Shown: in pieces, positions 5,773 through 12,700 of the stretch
Layout: every line of letters starts with the position of its first letter
How positions within the stretch are numbered: position 1 is the first letter of the stretch
Source: Pseudanabaenaceae cyanobacterium SKYG29
GTDB lineage: Bacteria; Cyanobacteriota; Cyanobacteriia; Pseudanabaenales; Pseudanabaenaceae
DNA length: 41,377 nucleotides
Direction: 5' to 3'
NCBI GenBank assembly: GCA_025055675.1
Contig: JANWWT010000009.1
Coordinates: 1 to 41,377, forward strand
Translations under genes and position numbers: made by a program
The notes under the pieces: generated by a model
Seen by the model: the letters and a program-made list of their open reading frames with translations, nothing else
Database searches by the model: none
Told to the model about the DNA's origin: nothing

Positions 5773-7095
5773 CTGAACACGCGGGTAATTTTGGTGCGGC
5801 ATGGGGAGAGCACTTCTAACCTGCAGGGACTGGTTCAGGGGCGGGGTTTTTTGGATGATCCAGCGCGCCAGTCTGCTCTTACGGAAAAAGGGGTAAATCA
5901 GGCTCTGGCAGTGGGAAAGGCTCTGTTGGACATAGAAATAGACTACATGCTTGTCAGTCCGCTTAAACGTGCTCAACAAACGGCAGAATTGATCAACTCT
6001 CTGCGGTCCTATCCCCTACCCACCACTACTGTTGCTAATCTCTGTGAAATTGATTTGCCTGGGTGGGAAGGGGTTAGCTTTGAGGAAGTTAAGCGCACTA
6101 GTCCCGATCGTTATCACTGTTGGCACAACACTCCCCACTTGTTGGAGATGCAGGGGAAGTATCCTGTTTTGGATTTATTTGCCCAAGCGCAAGCCTTTTG
6201 GCAGGAGTTGTTACCTAGTTATCAGGGCAAAACGGTTTTATGTATTGGTCACAGTGGTATCAATCGTGCTTTGATTTTTACGGCGTTAGGTATTACTCCC
6301 GATCGCTATCACTGTCTCTCCCAGGGCAACTGTTGTGTTAGCGTCATCAACTTTAAGCCGGATGGTACCGCCCAACTGGAGTCTGCTAACCTAACCCAAC
6401 ACCACAATCACATTCTCTATCCCCTGCGCTCGGGGTGGACGGGTCCGCGCATTCTTTTGGTCAGGCACGGCGAAACCCAGTGGAATCGGGAGCAGCGCTT
6501 TCAGGGACAGATCGATGTCCCCCTCAATCAAACGGGTCTTGCCCAAGCCCAGAAGACAGCGGAATTTTTGCGGTCAGTTAAAATCGATCGGGCTTTTGCC
6601 AGTCCCCTCCTGCGCCCTAAACAAACGGCAGAGGCAATCTTAGCGGGGCGGGATGTCCCTCTTACTCTACTAGATGACCTTAAGGAAATCTCCCACGGGT
6701 TATGGGAAGGGAAGTTAGAGACAGAAATTGCCCAAGAATTCCCAGGGGAGTTAGAGCGTTGGCAAAGGGAACCCCAAAATGTGCAAATGCCCCAGGGGGA
6801 AAATCTGCAGCAGGTGTGGCAACGGGCAAAGCGGGCTTGGCAGGAAATTATCACTGTATCCCAACCAGGGGAGACTGTTTTAGTCGTAGGACACGATGCC
6901 ATCAACAAAGCTCTGTTGTGTCAGTTGTTTGACCTAAAGCCCGATCGGTTTTGGGCATTTAAGCAGGGTAATGGGGGCATTAGCGTGGTCGATTTTCGGG
7001 AAGGCAAAGAGTCTGCCCCTGTTCTCACCACCGCCAACATCACCTTTCATCTATCGGGCAGTATCCTGGACACTACAGCCAAGGGGGCTCTATAG
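5773..7095 (+). CDS. Tandem two-domain histidine phosphatase (phosphoglycerate mutase-like)
   Basis: Two complete histidine-phosphatase domains in one chain of about 440 residues. Domain 1 has RHGEST and the second histidine in CIGHSG; domain 2 has RHGETQWN and VVGHDA. Both therefore look catalytic. Family members include cofactor-dependent phosphoglycerate mutases and phosphoserine phosphatases (cyanobacterial GpmB-like proteins), so the substrate is open. Starting at the TTG at 5791 would cut the first beta strand. An in-frame CTG at 5773, eight bases after GGAG, gives LNTRVILVRHGE, so I propose this non-standard start; no ATG, GTG or TTG lies between it and the upstream in-frame stop at 5746. 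Confidence 0.88.
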   Translation: MNTRVILVRHGESTSNLQGLVQGRGFLDDPARQSALTEKGVNQALAVGKALLDIEIDYMLVSPLKRAQQTAELINSLRSYPLPTTTVANLCEIDLPGWEGVSFEEVKRTSPDRYHCWHNTPHLLEMQGKYPVLDLFAQAQAFWQELLPSYQGKTVLCIGHSGINRALIFTALGITPDRYHCLSQGNCCVSVINFKPDGTAQLESANLTQHHNHILYPLRSGWTGPRILLVRHGETQWNREQRFQGQIDVPLNQTGLAQAQKTAEFLRSVKIDRAFASPLLRPKQTAEAILAGRDVPLTLLDDLKEISHGLWEGKLETEIAQEFPGELERWQREPQNVQMPQGENLQQVWQRAKRAWQEIITVSQPGETVLVVGHDAINKALLCQLFDLKPDRFWAFKQGNGGISVVDFREGKESAPVLTTANITFHLSGSILDTTAKGAL

Positions 7096-7121
7096 TGGTA
7101 GGTGGGAGAAGGAGGAGGACT

Positions 7122-7268
7122 ATGGCAGAGGACAGAACATTTCAGGTTACGGTTAGGGCAGAACTGCTTCCCAAAATTGAGTACCTAGCTGCTAGGGAGG
7201 GTTGTTCCCTAGAAGCCATGATTGAGCTGCTACTGGAAGAGAAACTCAGCGAAGTGAAAACTCCCTAA
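7122..7268 (+). CDS. 48-residue ribbon-helix-helix-like protein
   Basis: A short gene with a strong ribosome-binding site (GGAGGAGGA at 7111-7119, just before the ATG at 7122). The protein reads MAEDRTFQVTVRAELLPKIE, then two predicted helices ending LLLEEKLSEVKTP. One strand (FQVTVR) followed by two helices is the layout of ribbon-helix-helix DNA-binding proteins such as CopG, but no operator or partner is evident. It follows the histidine phosphatase by 26 bases and is probably in its operon. Its stop overlaps that of the convergent gene (shared CTAA). Confidence 0.65.
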   Translation: MAEDRTFQVTVRAELLPKIEYLAAREGCSLEAMIELLLEEKLSEVKTP

Positions 7269-7612
7269 ATGTCAATATCCCACAATTCAGGGACAAGAAT
7301 ATTGGGGCTAGGAGCGATCGAGCCATCACTGTTGACCTTCCAAGTAGCGGGCAGAGACACAGTCTTGCCATTTCTGGTTCTATAGAGATTAGCCACTGGC
7401 TCTTTTGGTGGAGTAGGTGAAGTAGTAGGTTTGCTGGGGGTTTGGGGGGTAGAAGGCTTCCCAGGAGTAGCCCCGCATATCCTAGTCAAATCTTGGGTAC
7501 GACCATCTTTAGTTTGAATAAAGCATTCAGGCGGCGTTTGGCTGTAGCTACCCAATGCCATTACCAAGAACACCGACAGCACAAATAAAACACAAGCCCA
7601 AACGTACTTCAT
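7265..7612 (-). CDS. Exported protein with proline/threonine linker, function unknown
   Basis: About 115 residues from the ATG at 7612, which has GAGG five bases upstream; the frame extends to 7633 without support. The N-terminus MKYVWACVLFVLSVFLVMALG is a signal peptide or membrane anchor. It is followed by a short cysteine-containing part (PECF, RICG), a linker rich in Pro, Thr and Ser (TPQTPSKPTTSPTPP), and a small C-terminal segment with GKTVSLPATWKVNSDGS. I recognise no family. It is presumably periplasmic or outer-face. Confidence 0.65.
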   Translation of the reverse strand: MKYVWACVLFVLSVFLVMALGSYSQTPPECFIQTKDGRTQDLTRICGATPGKPSTPQTPSKPTTSPTPPKEPVANLYRTRNGKTVSLPATWKVNSDGSIAPSPNILVPELWDIDI

Positions 7613-7775
7613 AAGTTCCTCAGAAAAAGACAACTCCAGCTTATCCTAGTACAGATGGGATAGTGAACAAAATACGTCTAACCAAACCTTAACTAGTCCT
7701 TAACCATTCGTTAAAGATAAAAACAAGTTGGGGTTGAAATAATAGGAGTCTGTACCTGTTACGGAATCGTTGTCT

Positions 7776-9551
7776 ATGTTTCTGCGATTTATATCACTAA
7801 TTCTGTGTTTATTGCTAGTGGGAGTGCCAGTAATTTTAGGGCAGTCCGTTCAAGCTTCCACAGCTCTACCTTGTTCTGCCACTGGGGGCACTTGGACAAA
7901 AGGGGAACTGAACGTTTATGTGTTTGATGTAGAACAAGGTGACAGTATGCTGGTCGTTGGACCCAACGCTAAGACCATCTTGATTGACCTGGGAGAGACA
8001 AGATTTAATACTACAGGGTCTGCTACTAACGCCACTTCTGTTGCCAACAAGATCAAACAAATTTGTGGCACGGGACAGAACCCTGTGCTCTTGGATTATT
8101 TCATTGCTACTCACTTGCACCTTGACCATATTGGCTATGCTGCTAATCCCAGCGACACTACCAGTTACGGTAATGGCATTTATCAACTGTTGAATGGATT
8201 GGGTTTTAGAGTTAATCAGTTTATCACCAGGGATGCCGGTACATGGACAGATAGAAACGGCAACGGCAGATGCGAACCTGGTAAATCCAACGAGCCTACC
8301 AATGAAATTAACTGGACAAATGTCGGTACTATTTCCACTACTGCTACGCGGTTCCTTTGTTGGGTTTATGGACCTGACAGCCAACCCGATCGGGCTAGTA
8401 TTCGGGGTCGCGTATTGACTGTGCGCAACAATGCCCCTTGGCCCGTCATTGATTTAGGGTCGGGTGCGAAAGCTGAAATCGTCAATGCCAATGGCAAGGG
8501 GTCTTTCATGGTTGATGGAGTGACTCCTATCAGTGGTAATTACGCCAACTTATCAGCACCACCCTCTGACAGCGACTATGCTGGGAGTAGTTCTGGGGGG
8601 CGACTACCTCCTTCAGAAAATGACTACAGTATTGCGGTGAAGCTATCCTACGGCAAGTACGTCATGGCTACCTCTGGTGATACGGATGGGGAATATAGCA
8701 CCAGCAGATTTGGCTATACCTACAACGACATTGAAGCCAGACTGGGTCCCCTCTTTGGCAACGTGGACACTTATCGTGTCAATCACCATGGTAGTCAACA
8801 TTCTTCTAATGCCCAGTTCTTGGCTACCCTACGTCCAGAAACAGCGATTATTTCCTGCGGGGCTAATACCTATGGTCACCCCACCAACCCCGTCCTCGAT
8901 CGGCTGAGGAGAGTGCCCAATGACCGCGGTACAGGAGCAGATATATTTTTAACTAACAATCCCTGTTCCCCTACCCAGTCTGATGGTTCTGCCACCAACT
9001 ACAGCGGTGTGTTTGGGAGCAATGGGGATGTAGTGGTGGTTACAACTAACCAAGGAGCAGGCTATCGCATTTCCTATCCAGGGGGCAGCAGGACTTACAC
9101 TGCCTACGGTAACGCTTCTTCCTCTGGTGGGACAGCGGGTGATCCCTCCAAGGTAGTAATTAATGAATACATGATGGCTCCTAATTCGGGCAATGAATGG
9201 GTAGAACTATACAACCCCACCAATAGCCCCGTAACGATCGGTGGTTTATATGTGGACGACATTCCTGGCGGCACTGCTCCTAAACAAATTCCCAGTGGTA
9301 CTACCATTCCTGCTAAGGGGTACTACGTATTAGAGGTTGGTAGTGCCATGCTCAACAACACGGGCTATGAAGAGGTTAGATTCCTGAAGCTAGAGAACGG
9401 TACAGAAACAGTCTATGACAAGACTAGCTATAATCTCTCGACAGCTAGAAACAACCAAGTCTTCTTCCGTACGGGAGATGGGGGTAGCTGGTGTAACCAA
9501 ATTTCCAGCCGCATAACTAGGGGAACAGCTAATCCTACTACCTGTCCCTAG
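7776..9551 (+). CDS. Secreted ComEC-like metallo-beta-lactamase with lamin-tail domain
   Basis: About 591 residues: signal peptide (MFLRFISLILCLLLVGVPV), a metallo-beta-lactamase fold of the ComEC/Rec2 type, then a C-terminal lamin-tail (LTD) domain beginning near VVINEYMMAPNSGNEWVELY. Metal ligands show as THLHLDH, and the ComEC signature HHGSQHSS with ISCGANTYGHP follows. The family in ComEC degrades one DNA strand during uptake, and LTD domains often go with secreted nucleases, so an extracellular nuclease or phosphodiesterase is likely but unproven. An in-frame TTG lies two codons upstream at 7770; I prefer the ATG. An insertion in the beta-lactamase domain (NGNGRCEPGKSNEP) resembles a calcium-binding loop. 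Confidence 0.85.
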   Translation: MFLRFISLILCLLLVGVPVILGQSVQASTALPCSATGGTWTKGELNVYVFDVEQGDSMLVVGPNAKTILIDLGETRFNTTGSATNATSVANKIKQICGTGQNPVLLDYFIATHLHLDHIGYAANPSDTTSYGNGIYQLLNGLGFRVNQFITRDAGTWTDRNGNGRCEPGKSNEPTNEINWTNVGTISTTATRFLCWVYGPDSQPDRASIRGRVLTVRNNAPWPVIDLGSGAKAEIVNANGKGSFMVDGVTPISGNYANLSAPPSDSDYAGSSSGGRLPPSENDYSIAVKLSYGKYVMATSGDTDGEYSTSRFGYTYNDIEARLGPLFGNVDTYRVNHHGSQHSSNAQFLATLRPETAIISCGANTYGHPTNPVLDRLRRVPNDRGTGADIFLTNNPCSPTQSDGSATNYSGVFGSNGDVVVVTTNQGAGYRISYPGGSRTYTAYGNASSSGGTAGDPSKVVINEYMMAPNSGNEWVELYNPTNSPVTIGGLYVDDIPGGTAPKQIPSGTTIPAKGYYVLEVGSAMLNNTGYEEVRFLKLENGTETVYDKTSYNLSTARNNQVFFRTGDGGSWCNQISSRITRGTANPTTCP

Positions 9552-9583: not shown

Positions 9584-9655
9584 AGGCGGCACCCAGATTC
9601 GAACTGGGGAATGAAGGTTTTGCAAACCTCTGCCTTACCACTTGGCTATGCCGCC
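9584..9655 (-). tRNA. trnC-GCA: tRNA-Cys (anticodon GCA)
   Basis: Read on the minus strand the sequence begins GGCGGCATAGCCAAG and folds as a cloverleaf: acceptor GGCGGCA with TGCCGCC, anticodon loop TTGCAAA with anticodon GCA, T-arm CCCAG-TTCGAAT-CTGGG. The discriminator base is T, the identity element of cysteine tRNAs. CCA is not encoded (TTAG follows). Total 72 bases, no intron. Confidence 0.96.
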
Positions 9656-9677: not shown

Positions 9678-10286
9678 CTAGGAGCGGTTTTTGCTGAGGA
9701 AGGAAGGCAACTCAACACGGGCGGGTAATTCCGCCTTTTGCCATTCCCGGTGTTCTTCCAGTAACCGATCGATCGCCTTACTGAGGCGCAGAGCGTAGTT
9801 ATGGAAATGCAAGGCTTGTTCCTGGAGATATTGCAGGGCAGTTTCGTATTCGTGTTTTTGTTTAGCCTGAGCAATAATTTGTTCCTGTAATTCTGCTACC
9901 TGTTGTTCCAATTCTTGAATGCGTTTTTGTCCTTGTTTATATTCCGCTTCCATAATATGGAGAGCTTCTTGCCAGGCAGACTGTAAAAGAAGGTGCTTTT
10001 GCTGTTGATATTCTTGCAATTGCTGTTCTAATTTTTGTTTTTCCTGCTGCAGGATATTAATTTGTTGTTTTTGTACCTGTAACTGACTTTGATATTCTTC
10101 TTGTAGCGCCAATAACTCTTGCATTTTGCGCAATAGAACCCCCTCGTTCTGCAACTTTTCCAACTGGTGGCATTTCTCTTGGTACTTCTTCCTGAGATTT
10201 TCTAGCTCTCGTTTTAGCTTTCCTATTTCTTCATCCCTTGTTGGTTTCCTTGGTGTTCTCGTGCCTCTTCTACTTCCGTTTGCCAC
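9678..10286 (-). CDS. Glutamine-rich coiled-coil protein, putative ParA partner
   Basis: No catalytic domain is visible. The roughly 202 residues start with a basic, probably disordered tail (RRGTRTPRKPTRDEE). A long coiled coil very rich in Gln follows (for example QKQQINILQQEKQKLEQQLQ). The C-terminal part has a lone Trp (HREWQKAELPARVELP). The gene overlaps the 3' end of parA and is clearly its operon partner. I prefer the GTG at 10286, nine bases after AGAGG, over the TTG at 10295. The layout (disordered basic N-terminus, Q-rich coiled coil, Trp near the end) recalls McdB carboxysome-positioning proteins, but this is a resemblance of architecture, not demonstrated homology. Confidence 0.8.
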   Translation of the reverse strand: MANGSRRGTRTPRKPTRDEEIGKLKRELENLRKKYQEKCHQLEKLQNEGVLLRKMQELLALQEEYQSQLQVQKQQINILQQEKQKLEQQLQEYQQQKHLLLQSAWQEALHIMEAEYKQGQKRIQELEQQVAELQEQIIAQAKQKHEYETALQYLQEQALHFHNYALRLSKAIDRLLEEHREWQKAELPARVELPSFLSKNRS

Positions 10287-11070
10287 TGCCCACAACCTCT
10301 TGCTTGAACAACTCCTGAATGCGCTTGGCGGCTATTTCCTTGGGTCTGTGTTCCATCACTGTTAACCCCCGATCGAAAGCTGTACGAATGTCATTACTTT
10401 CGGGGATAGTGATAGGGGAAAGCAGTGCCCCGAAAGTTTCCTGTGCCTGCAAGTACAGCCTACCCAGATGGGAACCTGCCCAAATAGTTTTATAGCGATC
10501 GTCTAACATATTGATAATTACTTTGACTTCCTTGTGACCGATGATGGGTGCAACTTCCTCTATGAATTGGATCATAGTTTCTGTGCACTGAAAGTCAGTG
10601 CGGTTAACACGGGTAGGTACTAGAATTTTGTGGGCACAAACCAGAGCGTTGGAAGTAATTTGGTTTAGTTCCCCTGGGCTGTCGATGAAGATGAAGTCGT
10701 AGCGGTCACTGATTTGCTGGATGTGACGATCGAGGACTTTCTCTGCTCCAATGGGAATTGCCGATAGTTCCACCACTGCCTGTGCCATAGAGACACTAGC
10801 GGGAATGATGTCTAGGTTTTTGTGGCTACGATGACACACTTCTATGACAGAACGATCGGGTTTTTTCTTCAGCAAAGCTAGGACAGTCTCTGTTTCATCT
10901 AGGGTGTCGCCCTGTTCCAAAAATAAGGTCGTACAAGTAATCTGGGAAGTCAGGTCAATGATGAGGACGCGATGACCAGCTAAAGCGGCACAGTGGGCAA
11001 CATTAGAACATAGCGTTGACTTGCCTGTCCCCCCCTTGTTGTTGGTAAATGCAAATACCCTGGCCGTCAT
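10270..11070 (-). CDS. ParA/MinD-family partition ATPase
   Basis: A 266-residue deviant Walker ATPase. The N-terminus carries NNKGGTGKST with the signature lysine of the ParA family (Lys12) and the P-loop lysine, and Walker B is YDFIFIDSPGEL. Such ATPases bind DNA as ATP dimers and pull or space cargo (plasmids, chromosomes, carboxysomes, receptors) through a partner that stimulates ATP hydrolysis. No ParB or centromere-like repeats are seen; instead the next gene, overlapping by about 17 bases, encodes a Q-rich coiled-coil protein. The cargo is unknown. Type-1 McdA proteins lack the signature lysine, so if this is an McdA it would be of the other type. Confidence 0.93.
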   Translation of the reverse strand: MTARVFAFTNNKGGTGKSTLCSNVAHCAALAGHRVLIIDLTSQITCTTLFLEQGDTLDETETVLALLKKKPDRSVIEVCHRSHKNLDIIPASVSMAQAVVELSAIPIGAEKVLDRHIQQISDRYDFIFIDSPGELNQITSNALVCAHKILVPTRVNRTDFQCTETMIQFIEEVAPIIGHKEVKVIINMLDDRYKTIWAGSHLGRLYLQAQETFGALLSPITIPESNDIRTAFDRGLTVMEHRPKEIAAKRIQELFKQEVVGSGKRK

Positions 11071-11151
11071 AACTGCATGGAAAATTTTTTAGGACAGCGT
11101 AGCAGAAATAATGCTATTTGTCCCCCTCCTTTTCTAAGTTTATGATTTTTT

Positions 11152-11637
11152 CTAGGTTTTGTGTTGCAATGCCAGTTGATAGTAAGACTTGGCGTGGTGG
11201 ATCAATTCCGATTGTTCTGCCTCTGTCACTTCCCTTACCACTCGTGCTGGCACTCCTGCTACTACCACCCCATCTGCTACATCCTTCGTCACTACTGCTC
11301 CCGCCCCGACGATACTACCACTGCCAATGGTCACCCCTTCTAAGATCACTGCCCCCATACCGATCAAACTCCCTGCACCAATCTTAACCCCATGCACAAC
11401 AGCGCGATGCCCGATCGTGACATGATCACCAATTACTAAATCTTTCCCCGGGTCACCGTGTAAAATTGCACCATCTTGGATGTTAGTGTAGGCTCCAATC
11501 GTGATGTGATTGAGGTCAGCCCGAATAACCACCTGGTACCAAATATTTACTCCCTCTGCAACAACCACATCCCCCAGAACTGTGGCATTGGGAGCAACAA
11601 ATGCACAAAGAGATAGATCAGGAGTATGCATATACAT
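11152..11637 (-). CDS. Gamma-carbonic-anhydrase-like hexapeptide protein
   Basis: A 161-residue left-handed beta-helix protein built of hexapeptide repeats. The three zinc histidines of gamma carbonic anhydrases appear to be present (one in AILHG, two in IGHRAVVHG), as do the active-site Arg/Asp (VIRAD) and Gln (IQDG). Members of this group include carbonic anhydrase homologues and CaiE/PaaY-type thioesterase-like proteins, so activity must be shown. Two start codons are possible: ATG 11637, or ATG 11631, which has AGG six bases upstream. It is separated from parA by about 80 bases on the same strand. Confidence 0.88.
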   Translation of the reverse strand: MYMHTPDLSLCAFVAPNATVLGDVVVAEGVNIWYQVVIRADLNHITIGAYTNIQDGAILHGDPGKDLVIGDHVTIGHRAVVHGVKIGAGSLIGMGAVILEGVTIGSGSIVGAGAVVTKDVADGVVVAGVPARVVREVTEAEQSELIHHAKSYYQLALQHKT

Positions 11638-11661: not shown

Positions 11662-12483
11662 TTATTGTTGGTGTAAGGCTATAACCCGATCGAGTCGGTC
11701 GACGAGGCTCCCGAGGCGTCGGTCGACGAGGCTCCCGAGGCGTCGGTCGACGAGGCTCCCGAGGCGGGGCAGCCCTGTTATGTCAGCAACCTGCTCTGGG
11801 GGCATAGCTAGTTTGAGGAGATTGCGACCTATTTTAGCGGCTTCCTCCTGCTTGCCAAGTTGAAATCCTTCCTCCTTTGCCTCCTGATAAACCTTCGTCT
11901 GCTTCAAGTCCCCCAAACTAAACATCCTCTCTATCTCCTCCCTGCTTCTGTCCTTTAGCTTGTATACCAAAATTGTTAGTACGAATTCTAGCAAATCTGG
12001 CTGTTTCTCTACCACTTGCTTAGCTAATTCCACGGCTTCAAACTCTGAACAAATCATCAGTTTTGTTAATCCCACCAGGGGAGATTTGTGCTCAGATAAC
12101 TCATCTAGGTAAATAACTCTAACCCTACCACTGCTATACAACTCCTGATAGTGTTTACCTACCTCCGGTTCTACCTTGCGACTGGGGAAAATAACTGCCG
12201 CCCGCCAATCTGACACAGGTCGATATTGATTGAGATAGATGAAAATCTCGGTAAACAACTCACTGTAGAATGTCTCAACTTTCTGAAACTGCACCTCGAC
12301 AAACCACAGGCAGTTATCGGGATGGTCAGGTACAAACACCCCGTCAAATCTAAAGGCTTTTTCTTTGACTTCTACGGAGGTAAACTGGTAGGTAGAAGCG
12401 ATTTCAGGGGACAGCCCCAGCAACTCAAACAACAGTTGAGGGTAGGATTGAAACAGTTGATAAAAGATAGTGTCAGTCCGCAT
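11662..12483 (-). CDS. Rpn/DUF2887-type PD-(D/E)XK nuclease-like protein with C-terminal repeats
   Basis: A 273-residue member of the cyanobacterial Rpn-like family (DUF2887), starting MRTDTIFYQLFQSYPQLLFE. The putative nuclease core is visible as FRFDGVF...FVEVQFQK (Asp, then Glu-x-Gln in place of Glu-x-Lys). Relatives of this kind are called recombination-promoting nucleases, but native activity here is untested. The C-terminus holds three perfect in-frame copies of the octapeptide RLGSLVDR encoded by a 24-bp tandem repeat. A decayed relative lies immediately upstream on the same strand. No terminal inverted repeats or target duplications mark it as a mobile element. Confidence 0.82.
   Translation of the reverse strand: MRTDTIFYQLFQSYPQLLFELLGLSPEIASTYQFTSVEVKEKAFRFDGVFVPDHPDNCLWFVEVQFQKVETFYSELFTEIFIYLNQYRPVSDWRAAVIFPSRKVEPEVGKHYQELYSSGRVRVIYLDELSEHKSPLVGLTKLMICSEFEAVELAKQVVEKQPDLLEFVLTILVYKLKDRSREEIERMFSLGDLKQTKVYQEAKEEGFQLGKQEEAAKIGRNLLKLAMPPEQVADITGLPRLGSLVDRRLGSLVDRRLGSLVDRLDRVIALHQQ
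11694..11765 (-). repeat. Three 24-bp tandem repeats inside the Rpn-like gene
   Basis: Three identical units at 11694-11717, 11718-11741 and 11742-11765, each starting GTCGGTCGACGAGG on the plus strand. Each contains the palindrome GGTCGACC across or near unit joins and the near-palindrome CGAGGCTCCCGAGG, so single strands could fold into a series of hairpins. The array encodes RLGSLVDR three times. Confidence 0.95.
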
Positions 12484-12484
12484 G

Positions 12485-12700
12485 CTTTTGTTGTAAGGCT
12501 GTGACCCGATTGAATCAGTCGACGAGGCTCCCGAGTCGTCGGTCGACGAGGCTCCCGAGGCGTCGGTCGACGAGGCTCCCGAGTCGGGGTAGTCCTGTCA
12601 CGGCGTTGAAATCCCTCCTATCTTAGCTGTTGATAAACCTTTGTTTGCCTCAAGCCTTGCAAATTAAACATCCCTGGTATGTCTTGGTATACCAAACCTT
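12485..12700 (-). pseudogene. Remnant of a second Rpn-like gene (C-terminal part)
   Basis: The minus strand reads MFNLQGLRQTKVYQQLR, then a TAG stop, then EGFQ, matching MFSLGDLKQTKVYQEAKEEGFQ in the intact neighbour. About 30 residues are then missing and, in a shifted frame, VTGLPRLGSLVDR follows with the same repeat before a TGA. Similarity continues upstream to about 12697 (LVY). With a nonsense codon, an internal deletion and a frameshift it cannot encode the protein. It is the 3' part of a tandem copy of the intact gene. Confidence 0.85.
12514..12585 (-). repeat. Second array of the 24-bp repeat, in the Rpn remnant
   Basis: Three units (12514-12537, 12538-12561, 12562-12585) of the same 24-mer found in the intact gene. 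The middle unit is identical; the last unit ends AGTC instead of AGGC, and the first unit has that change plus an altered start. Copy number (three) is the same in both arrays. Confidence 0.93.

Follow-up and report, generated by a model that had tools for sequence, protein, structure and literature searches.

A ParA-type ATPase and a coiled-coil adaptor with an FtsZ-like tail in cyanobacteria: a candidate link between chromosome and division machinery

The locus described here, part of a 41,377-nucleotide stretch of DNA from Pseudanabaenaceae cyanobacterium SKYG29 that was analysed as a whole (hereafter the window), raises the question of which cargo is served by a ParA-type ATPase whose gene overlaps that of a glutamine-rich coiled-coil protein. 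The preliminary description, made from the window sequence, had suggested a cargo-positioning system with the carboxysome or a bicarbonate-related structure as a cargo worth considering. A positioning system composed of ParA and an adaptor is well supported by the comparisons reported below. The carboxysome reading fails, and the conserved C-terminal tail of the adaptor resembles that of the division protein FtsZ.

The ATPase and its coiled-coil partner

The parA gene (10270-11070, minus strand) encodes a ParA/MinD-family ATPase of 266 amino acids with the deviant Walker A sequence NNKGGTGKST and its signature lysine, Lys12. The family assignment and the signature lysine in KGGTGKS, both recognised in the preliminary description, are borne out: AAA_31 is the top Pfam match (E 1.7e-33; the MipZ Pfam family scores 1.2e-11) and KGGTGKS is invariant across 12 window-type ParA orthologues. 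The AlphaFold2 model (mean pLDDT 90) shows a confident ParA fold whose nearest PDB folds are those of Soj/ParA (TM 0.79-0.89), with Cyanothece McdA ranking lower. The window ATPase thus combines the deviant Walker A motif, the signature lysine and the ParA fold by which ParA/MinD positioning ATPases are recognised. An IQ-TREE phylogeny of 50 ATPases places the window-type ParA proteins in one clade (support 100/100), and the type 2 McdA clade (100/100), type 1 McdA and MinD all fall outside it; some long branches meet in this tree, which leaves its deeper branching uncertain, whereas the distinctness of the window clade has good support. By ATPase profile search, window-type ParA is present in 20 of 388 genomes of the class, a sharply bounded group made up of family f1 (among the Pseudanabaenaceae) minus genus g4, family f5 (near Synechococcus sp. 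M44_DOE_062) and a single genome of family f21 (G037).

The adaptor gene (9678-10286, minus strand) yields 202 amino acids from a GTG start and overlaps the end of parA by 17 bases; a TTG codon at 10295, 9 bases before the GTG, is an alternative start that would lengthen the protein to 205 amino acids. Glutamine makes up 17% of the protein. AlphaFold2 predicts a disordered basic start followed by a single long helix spanning residues 17-185 (9732-10238, minus strand); this helix contains the conserved core RIQELEQQ..LQEQ..EYE.A.Q, and a further, short helix is predicted in the tail. The overlapping partner with a basic disordered N-terminus and a Q-rich coiled coil is therefore as first described, and so is the absence of ParB, since no ParB gene adjoins the window parA. 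A search of the PDB with the adaptor returned weak coiled-coil matches and nothing stronger, and Pfam, NCBIfam and PHROGs gave no name to it or to its wider family beyond coiled-coil noise. A coiled-coil gene directly follows window-type parA at every relative locus read, and the pairing is conserved among orthologues from 19 other genomes and therefore exceeds chance; in one relative (G012, locus L020) the adaptor frame is broken. A tRNA-Cys(GCA) gene (9584-9655, minus strand) lies immediately downstream of the adaptor gene in the window.

The disordered basic N-terminus of the adaptor, MANGSRRGTRTPRKPTRDEE (10227-10286, minus strand), is a candidate ParA-docking or ATPase-activating segment. 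In ParB, MinE and PomX, N-termini of this basic kind act as activators of the ATPase, and McdB has one as well (PMC7993993). The N-termini of ParA-linked adaptors resemble VSESNLARSLFSGK...RRK in f1 and MTEPDIARSLFSGK...RRRK in f5, and in the window genus they consist of a K/R-rich stretch; homologues from genomes lacking ParA have starts resembling VSEPDLATGHES or VSELKREAALREV...NDDDDLDALL. More specifically, LARSLFSGK with a K/R tract (in the window genus, the K/R-rich start) is found only where ParA is present, and SLFS followed by a basic segment occurs in none of the approximately 46 ParA-less homologues read. Adaptors of the window genus have the basic tract alone, the SLFS motif being missing, and in the adaptors at loci L014 and L015 the motif is weak. 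An adjacent adaptor with a positively charged N-terminal extension, as expected of a positioning system, is thus present, the N-termini of L014 and L015 being weakly charged. The covariation of the N-terminus with ParA, as read from these sequences, is compatible with a role in docking on the ATPase.

An FtsZ-like tail and a wider adaptor family

The conserved C-terminus of the adaptor follows the pattern [IV][DE]LP[SA]FL-x-R-x-R. Comparison with relatives and with FtsZ delimits an FtsZ-like tail in the window protein, RVELPSFLSKNRS (9681-9719, minus strand), whose final residues are VELPSFLSKNRS; relatives end in VDLPSFLVKNRP, IDLPSFLVRQR or VDLPSFLIRNR, and the G037 adaptor in VDLPAFLTRRR. 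The C-terminal peptide of FtsZ in the same genomes is LDIP[DE]FLQRRR, followed by P in the fuller form LDIP[DE]FLQRRRP. The window tail has the arrangement that defines the FtsZ peptide, [DE]-h-P-x-F-L and then R/K at the extreme C-terminus. The likeness to the FtsZ peptide (IPDFL) consists of the hPxFL core and the basic residues at the very end of the protein; the difference is that the peptide is carried here by a coiled-coil protein, whereas in FtsZ it is carried by a tubulin-like GTPase. The adaptors of f5 (L076-L079, L162-L168) end in MP[TSP][FY][LM]LD (MPPYLLD, MPTFLLD, MPSFMLD), without the basic end of FtsZ.

Within the last 30 residues, a strict FtsZ-type motif is present in all 25 FtsZ proteins and in 49 of 56 adaptor-family proteins, but in none of approximately 840 other predicted proteins. 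These counts are weakened because the motif was drawn up with the tails already in view; the conservation of the tail is itself independent of the motif definition. A looser motif was found in one unrelated protein, its other matches being the f5 adaptors and one unsorted FtsZ. The background for these comparisons comprised 931 predicted proteins from the retrieved loci and a DNA-pattern scan of 12 genomes. In that scan, a degenerate DNA pattern for the tail gave 29 matches across the 12 whole genomes, 20 of which were ftsZ or the adaptor gene, each at the C-terminal end. The core IPDFL of the cyanobacterial FtsZ tail binds ZipN/Ftn2; FtsZ of algae and plants likewise binds the ZipN homologue ARC6, for which the tail phenylalanine is essential (PMC11285052). 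The window adaptor keeps the corresponding phenylalanine, and a ZipN homologue is encoded by the window genome.

The family to which the adaptor belongs is considerably wider than the group of genomes with window-type ParA. A profile of the adaptor core and tail matched 146 of 291 genomes of the class, nearly all of them once, mostly in proteins of 320-540 amino acids, and this coiled-coil family is nameless in Pfam and NCBIfam. Among the 20 members read, frequent endings are VDLPEFLMRRR, IDLPEFLMRRR, VDLPDFLARRR and IDIPEFLVRRR, against LDIPEFLQRRR in FtsZ; the tail is absent from some members (L328-L330, L338, L341). Many of these genes adjoin trpC and a gene for a DUF5340 protein. In G037 the order is DUF5340, window-type ParA and adaptor, at the usual locus of the family, so that the adaptor is most simply an orthologue of the wide family and ParA an additional member of the locus. 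Genus g4, which belongs to the same family as the window genome, has no ParA, having lost it or never had it, and retains the adaptor core and tail.

Carboxysomes and other possible cargoes

Published type 2 McdAB systems are defined by the signature lysine, a Q-rich region and an invariant C-terminal tryptophan (PMC8262871; PMC11321042). The preliminary description had taken the signature lysine of the window ATPase as a difference from type 1 McdA, and hence as a sign of a different type or another cargo; because type 2 McdA also carries it (PMC8262871), the lysine does not separate the window ATPase from McdA. When the ParA genes were examined in ten relatives, type 2 McdAB pairs were recognised by a ParA of approximately 220 amino acids with NGKGGVGKTTT, followed by an McdB with an MTRKxLxDLLR-like start and an NIGW[MFV]D end. 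The search for another McdAB that had been proposed as a check of the carboxysome cargo found such a standard type 2 system in the window genome itself, with McdA at G000:C2:91410-92045, beside ccmM-ccmN, and McdB, ending in NIGWFD, at G000:C4:217651-218142. Type 2 McdA (E <1e-40) occurs in 9 of the 20 genomes with window-type ParA and in none of the f5 genomes. The type 2 mcdA of the window genome (L217:5908-6600) is convergent to ccmN and its mcdB (L248:3152-3643) is on a different contig; the two genes are adjacent in G001, a genome of the same genus (L250). At locus L258 (G008:C21, approximately 6330-8978) a type 2 McdAB adjoins, and is convergent with, a window-type ParA-adaptor pair; the McdB there ends in NIGYID, with tyrosine replacing the invariant tryptophan, and the McdA match has an in-frame TAG.

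That the pair is itself a carboxysome-positioning McdAB system is highly unlikely. It shares with beta-McdAB type 2 a ParA with the signature lysine and an adjacent adaptor with the McdB-like layout of charged N-terminus and Q-rich coil; moreover, type 2 McdA is missing from the f5 genomes, whose adaptors, like McdB-like proteins (PMC11321042), have an aromatic residue in an acidic setting at the end of the tail. Set against this, the window ATPase falls in its own clade and joins neither McdA type, and a separate type 2 McdAB is present in the window genome and in many relatives that have the window-type system. The tryptophan that had suggested McdB is present, but it stands 21st from the C-terminal end, is conserved within the genus alone and has no McdB-type tail around it; the motif that relatives conserve at the C-terminus is the one ending the window protein and contains no tryptophan. 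The gamma-carbonic-anhydrase-like hexapeptide protein, which had been the other pointer to carboxysomes, is indeed encoded upstream (11152-11637, minus strand), but it is retained in the three genomes of the window genus and nowhere else, and the gene probably lies outside the ParA-adaptor system. No carboxysome structural gene was recognised at the locus in the relatives read. Membership in McdAB was rejected on the ATPase tree, the adaptor tail and the coexistence with standard McdAB. A profile comparison of the adaptor with McdB gave a probability of 60% over the coil region only, which was not counted as homology.

The pair could also be read as a DNA segregation system of the ParAB type whose adaptor is a divergent centromere-binding protein, but this is extremely improbable. 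In both fold and sequence the window ATPase is closest to Soj/ParA, but no DNA-binding domain appears in the adaptor above Pfam cut-offs and adaptor homologues occur in many genomes without ParA. The ATPase does not group with plasmid ParA either, a grouping that would have counted against the preliminary reading; the best plasmid matches reach approximately 30% identity. A rather more serious alternative, though still an unlikely one, is that the pair positions a different cargo, such as a pilus or chemoreceptor cluster, polyphosphate or a filament, in which case the LPxFL tail would bind that cargo and the likeness to FtsZ would be convergent. Short linear motifs converge easily, the tails in f5 are acidic and resemble FtsZ less closely, and no constant neighbour gene across the relatives read names a cargo; however, the likeness covers 8-10 residues at the very C-terminal end, is most pronounced in the wide ParA-less family and is absent from the background proteins. 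Given these weaker resemblances in f5 and the absence of type 2 McdA from its genomes, the f5 systems in particular may serve a different cargo.

A possible connection to cell division

On the evidence of sequence, the reading we favour, and consider reasonably probable, is that the pair constitutes a ParA/MinD-type system in which the adaptor links ParA to division proteins that read the FtsZ tail, in a manner resembling PomZ-PomX. The window ParA would be a nucleoid-surfing ATPase, and the basic disordered N-terminus of the adaptor would dock on the ATP-bound ParA dimer and trigger hydrolysis. The long coiled coil would provide oligomerisation and spacing, and the tail, by copying the FtsZ peptide, would dock on readers of that peptide, for which ZipN/Ftn2, SepF and MinC are candidates. 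The output of such a system may be to position FtsZ-anchoring factors relative to the nucleoid or to compete for them locally; the effect on division could be positive, through placing of the Z-ring, or negative, through competition with FtsZ for its anchors. A broader proposal, which we offer tentatively, is that this is a cyanobacterial division-placement system in which ParA drives an FtsZ-peptide mimic, and that it was ancestral to deep-branching cyanobacteria, most others keeping the adaptor alone, still competing for or recruiting the readers of the FtsZ tail.

The comparison with PomXYZ concerns architecture alone (PMC7993993). The PomZ-PomX(-PomY) system of Myxococcus xanthus likewise joins a ParA/MinD ATPase to a coiled-coil adaptor, PomX, in which a basic N-terminal peptide activates the ATPase and the coiled coil is self-interacting, and its output is placement of the Z-ring; an FtsZ-like tail does not form part of the description of PomX in the passages considered. 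MipZ is similar in being a member of the ParA/MinD family of ATPases through which control of FtsZ is tied to the nucleoid (PMC7766704), but it acts via ParB and on FtsZ itself, whereas in the window system a dedicated coiled-coil adaptor bears the FtsZ-type peptide. CyDiv and SepT were set apart from the adaptor by their descriptions: the papers on them give transmembrane segments for both, none of which showed in the adaptor, and a tail of this type is described for neither.

According to a review, SlmA and Noc are absent from cyanobacteria, and its authors detected no MipZ in three model strains (PMC7766704), so that the group has no known control of the Z-ring through the nucleoid. The ParA-adaptor pair points to an undescribed link between chromosome and division machinery; if the proposed function is correct, ParA with its FtsZ-tailed adaptor would be a first candidate for nucleoid-linked Z-ring control in cyanobacteria. 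More generally, about half of the sampled cyanobacteria have an unannotated coiled-coil protein with an FtsZ-type tail, which suggests a missing division factor. In G009 and its counterpart L073 (L073:1-4014) the ParA-adaptor operon is divergent from minC-minD-minE, a neighbourhood that is suggestive, yet confined to a single genus and possibly due to chance. Elsewhere in the window, a nearly identical 24-base unit is repeated in tandem at both ends of a DUF2887/Rpn-type nuclease gene (11662-12483), one array (11694-11766) falling within the 3' end of the gene and the other (12518-12586) immediately preceding its start.
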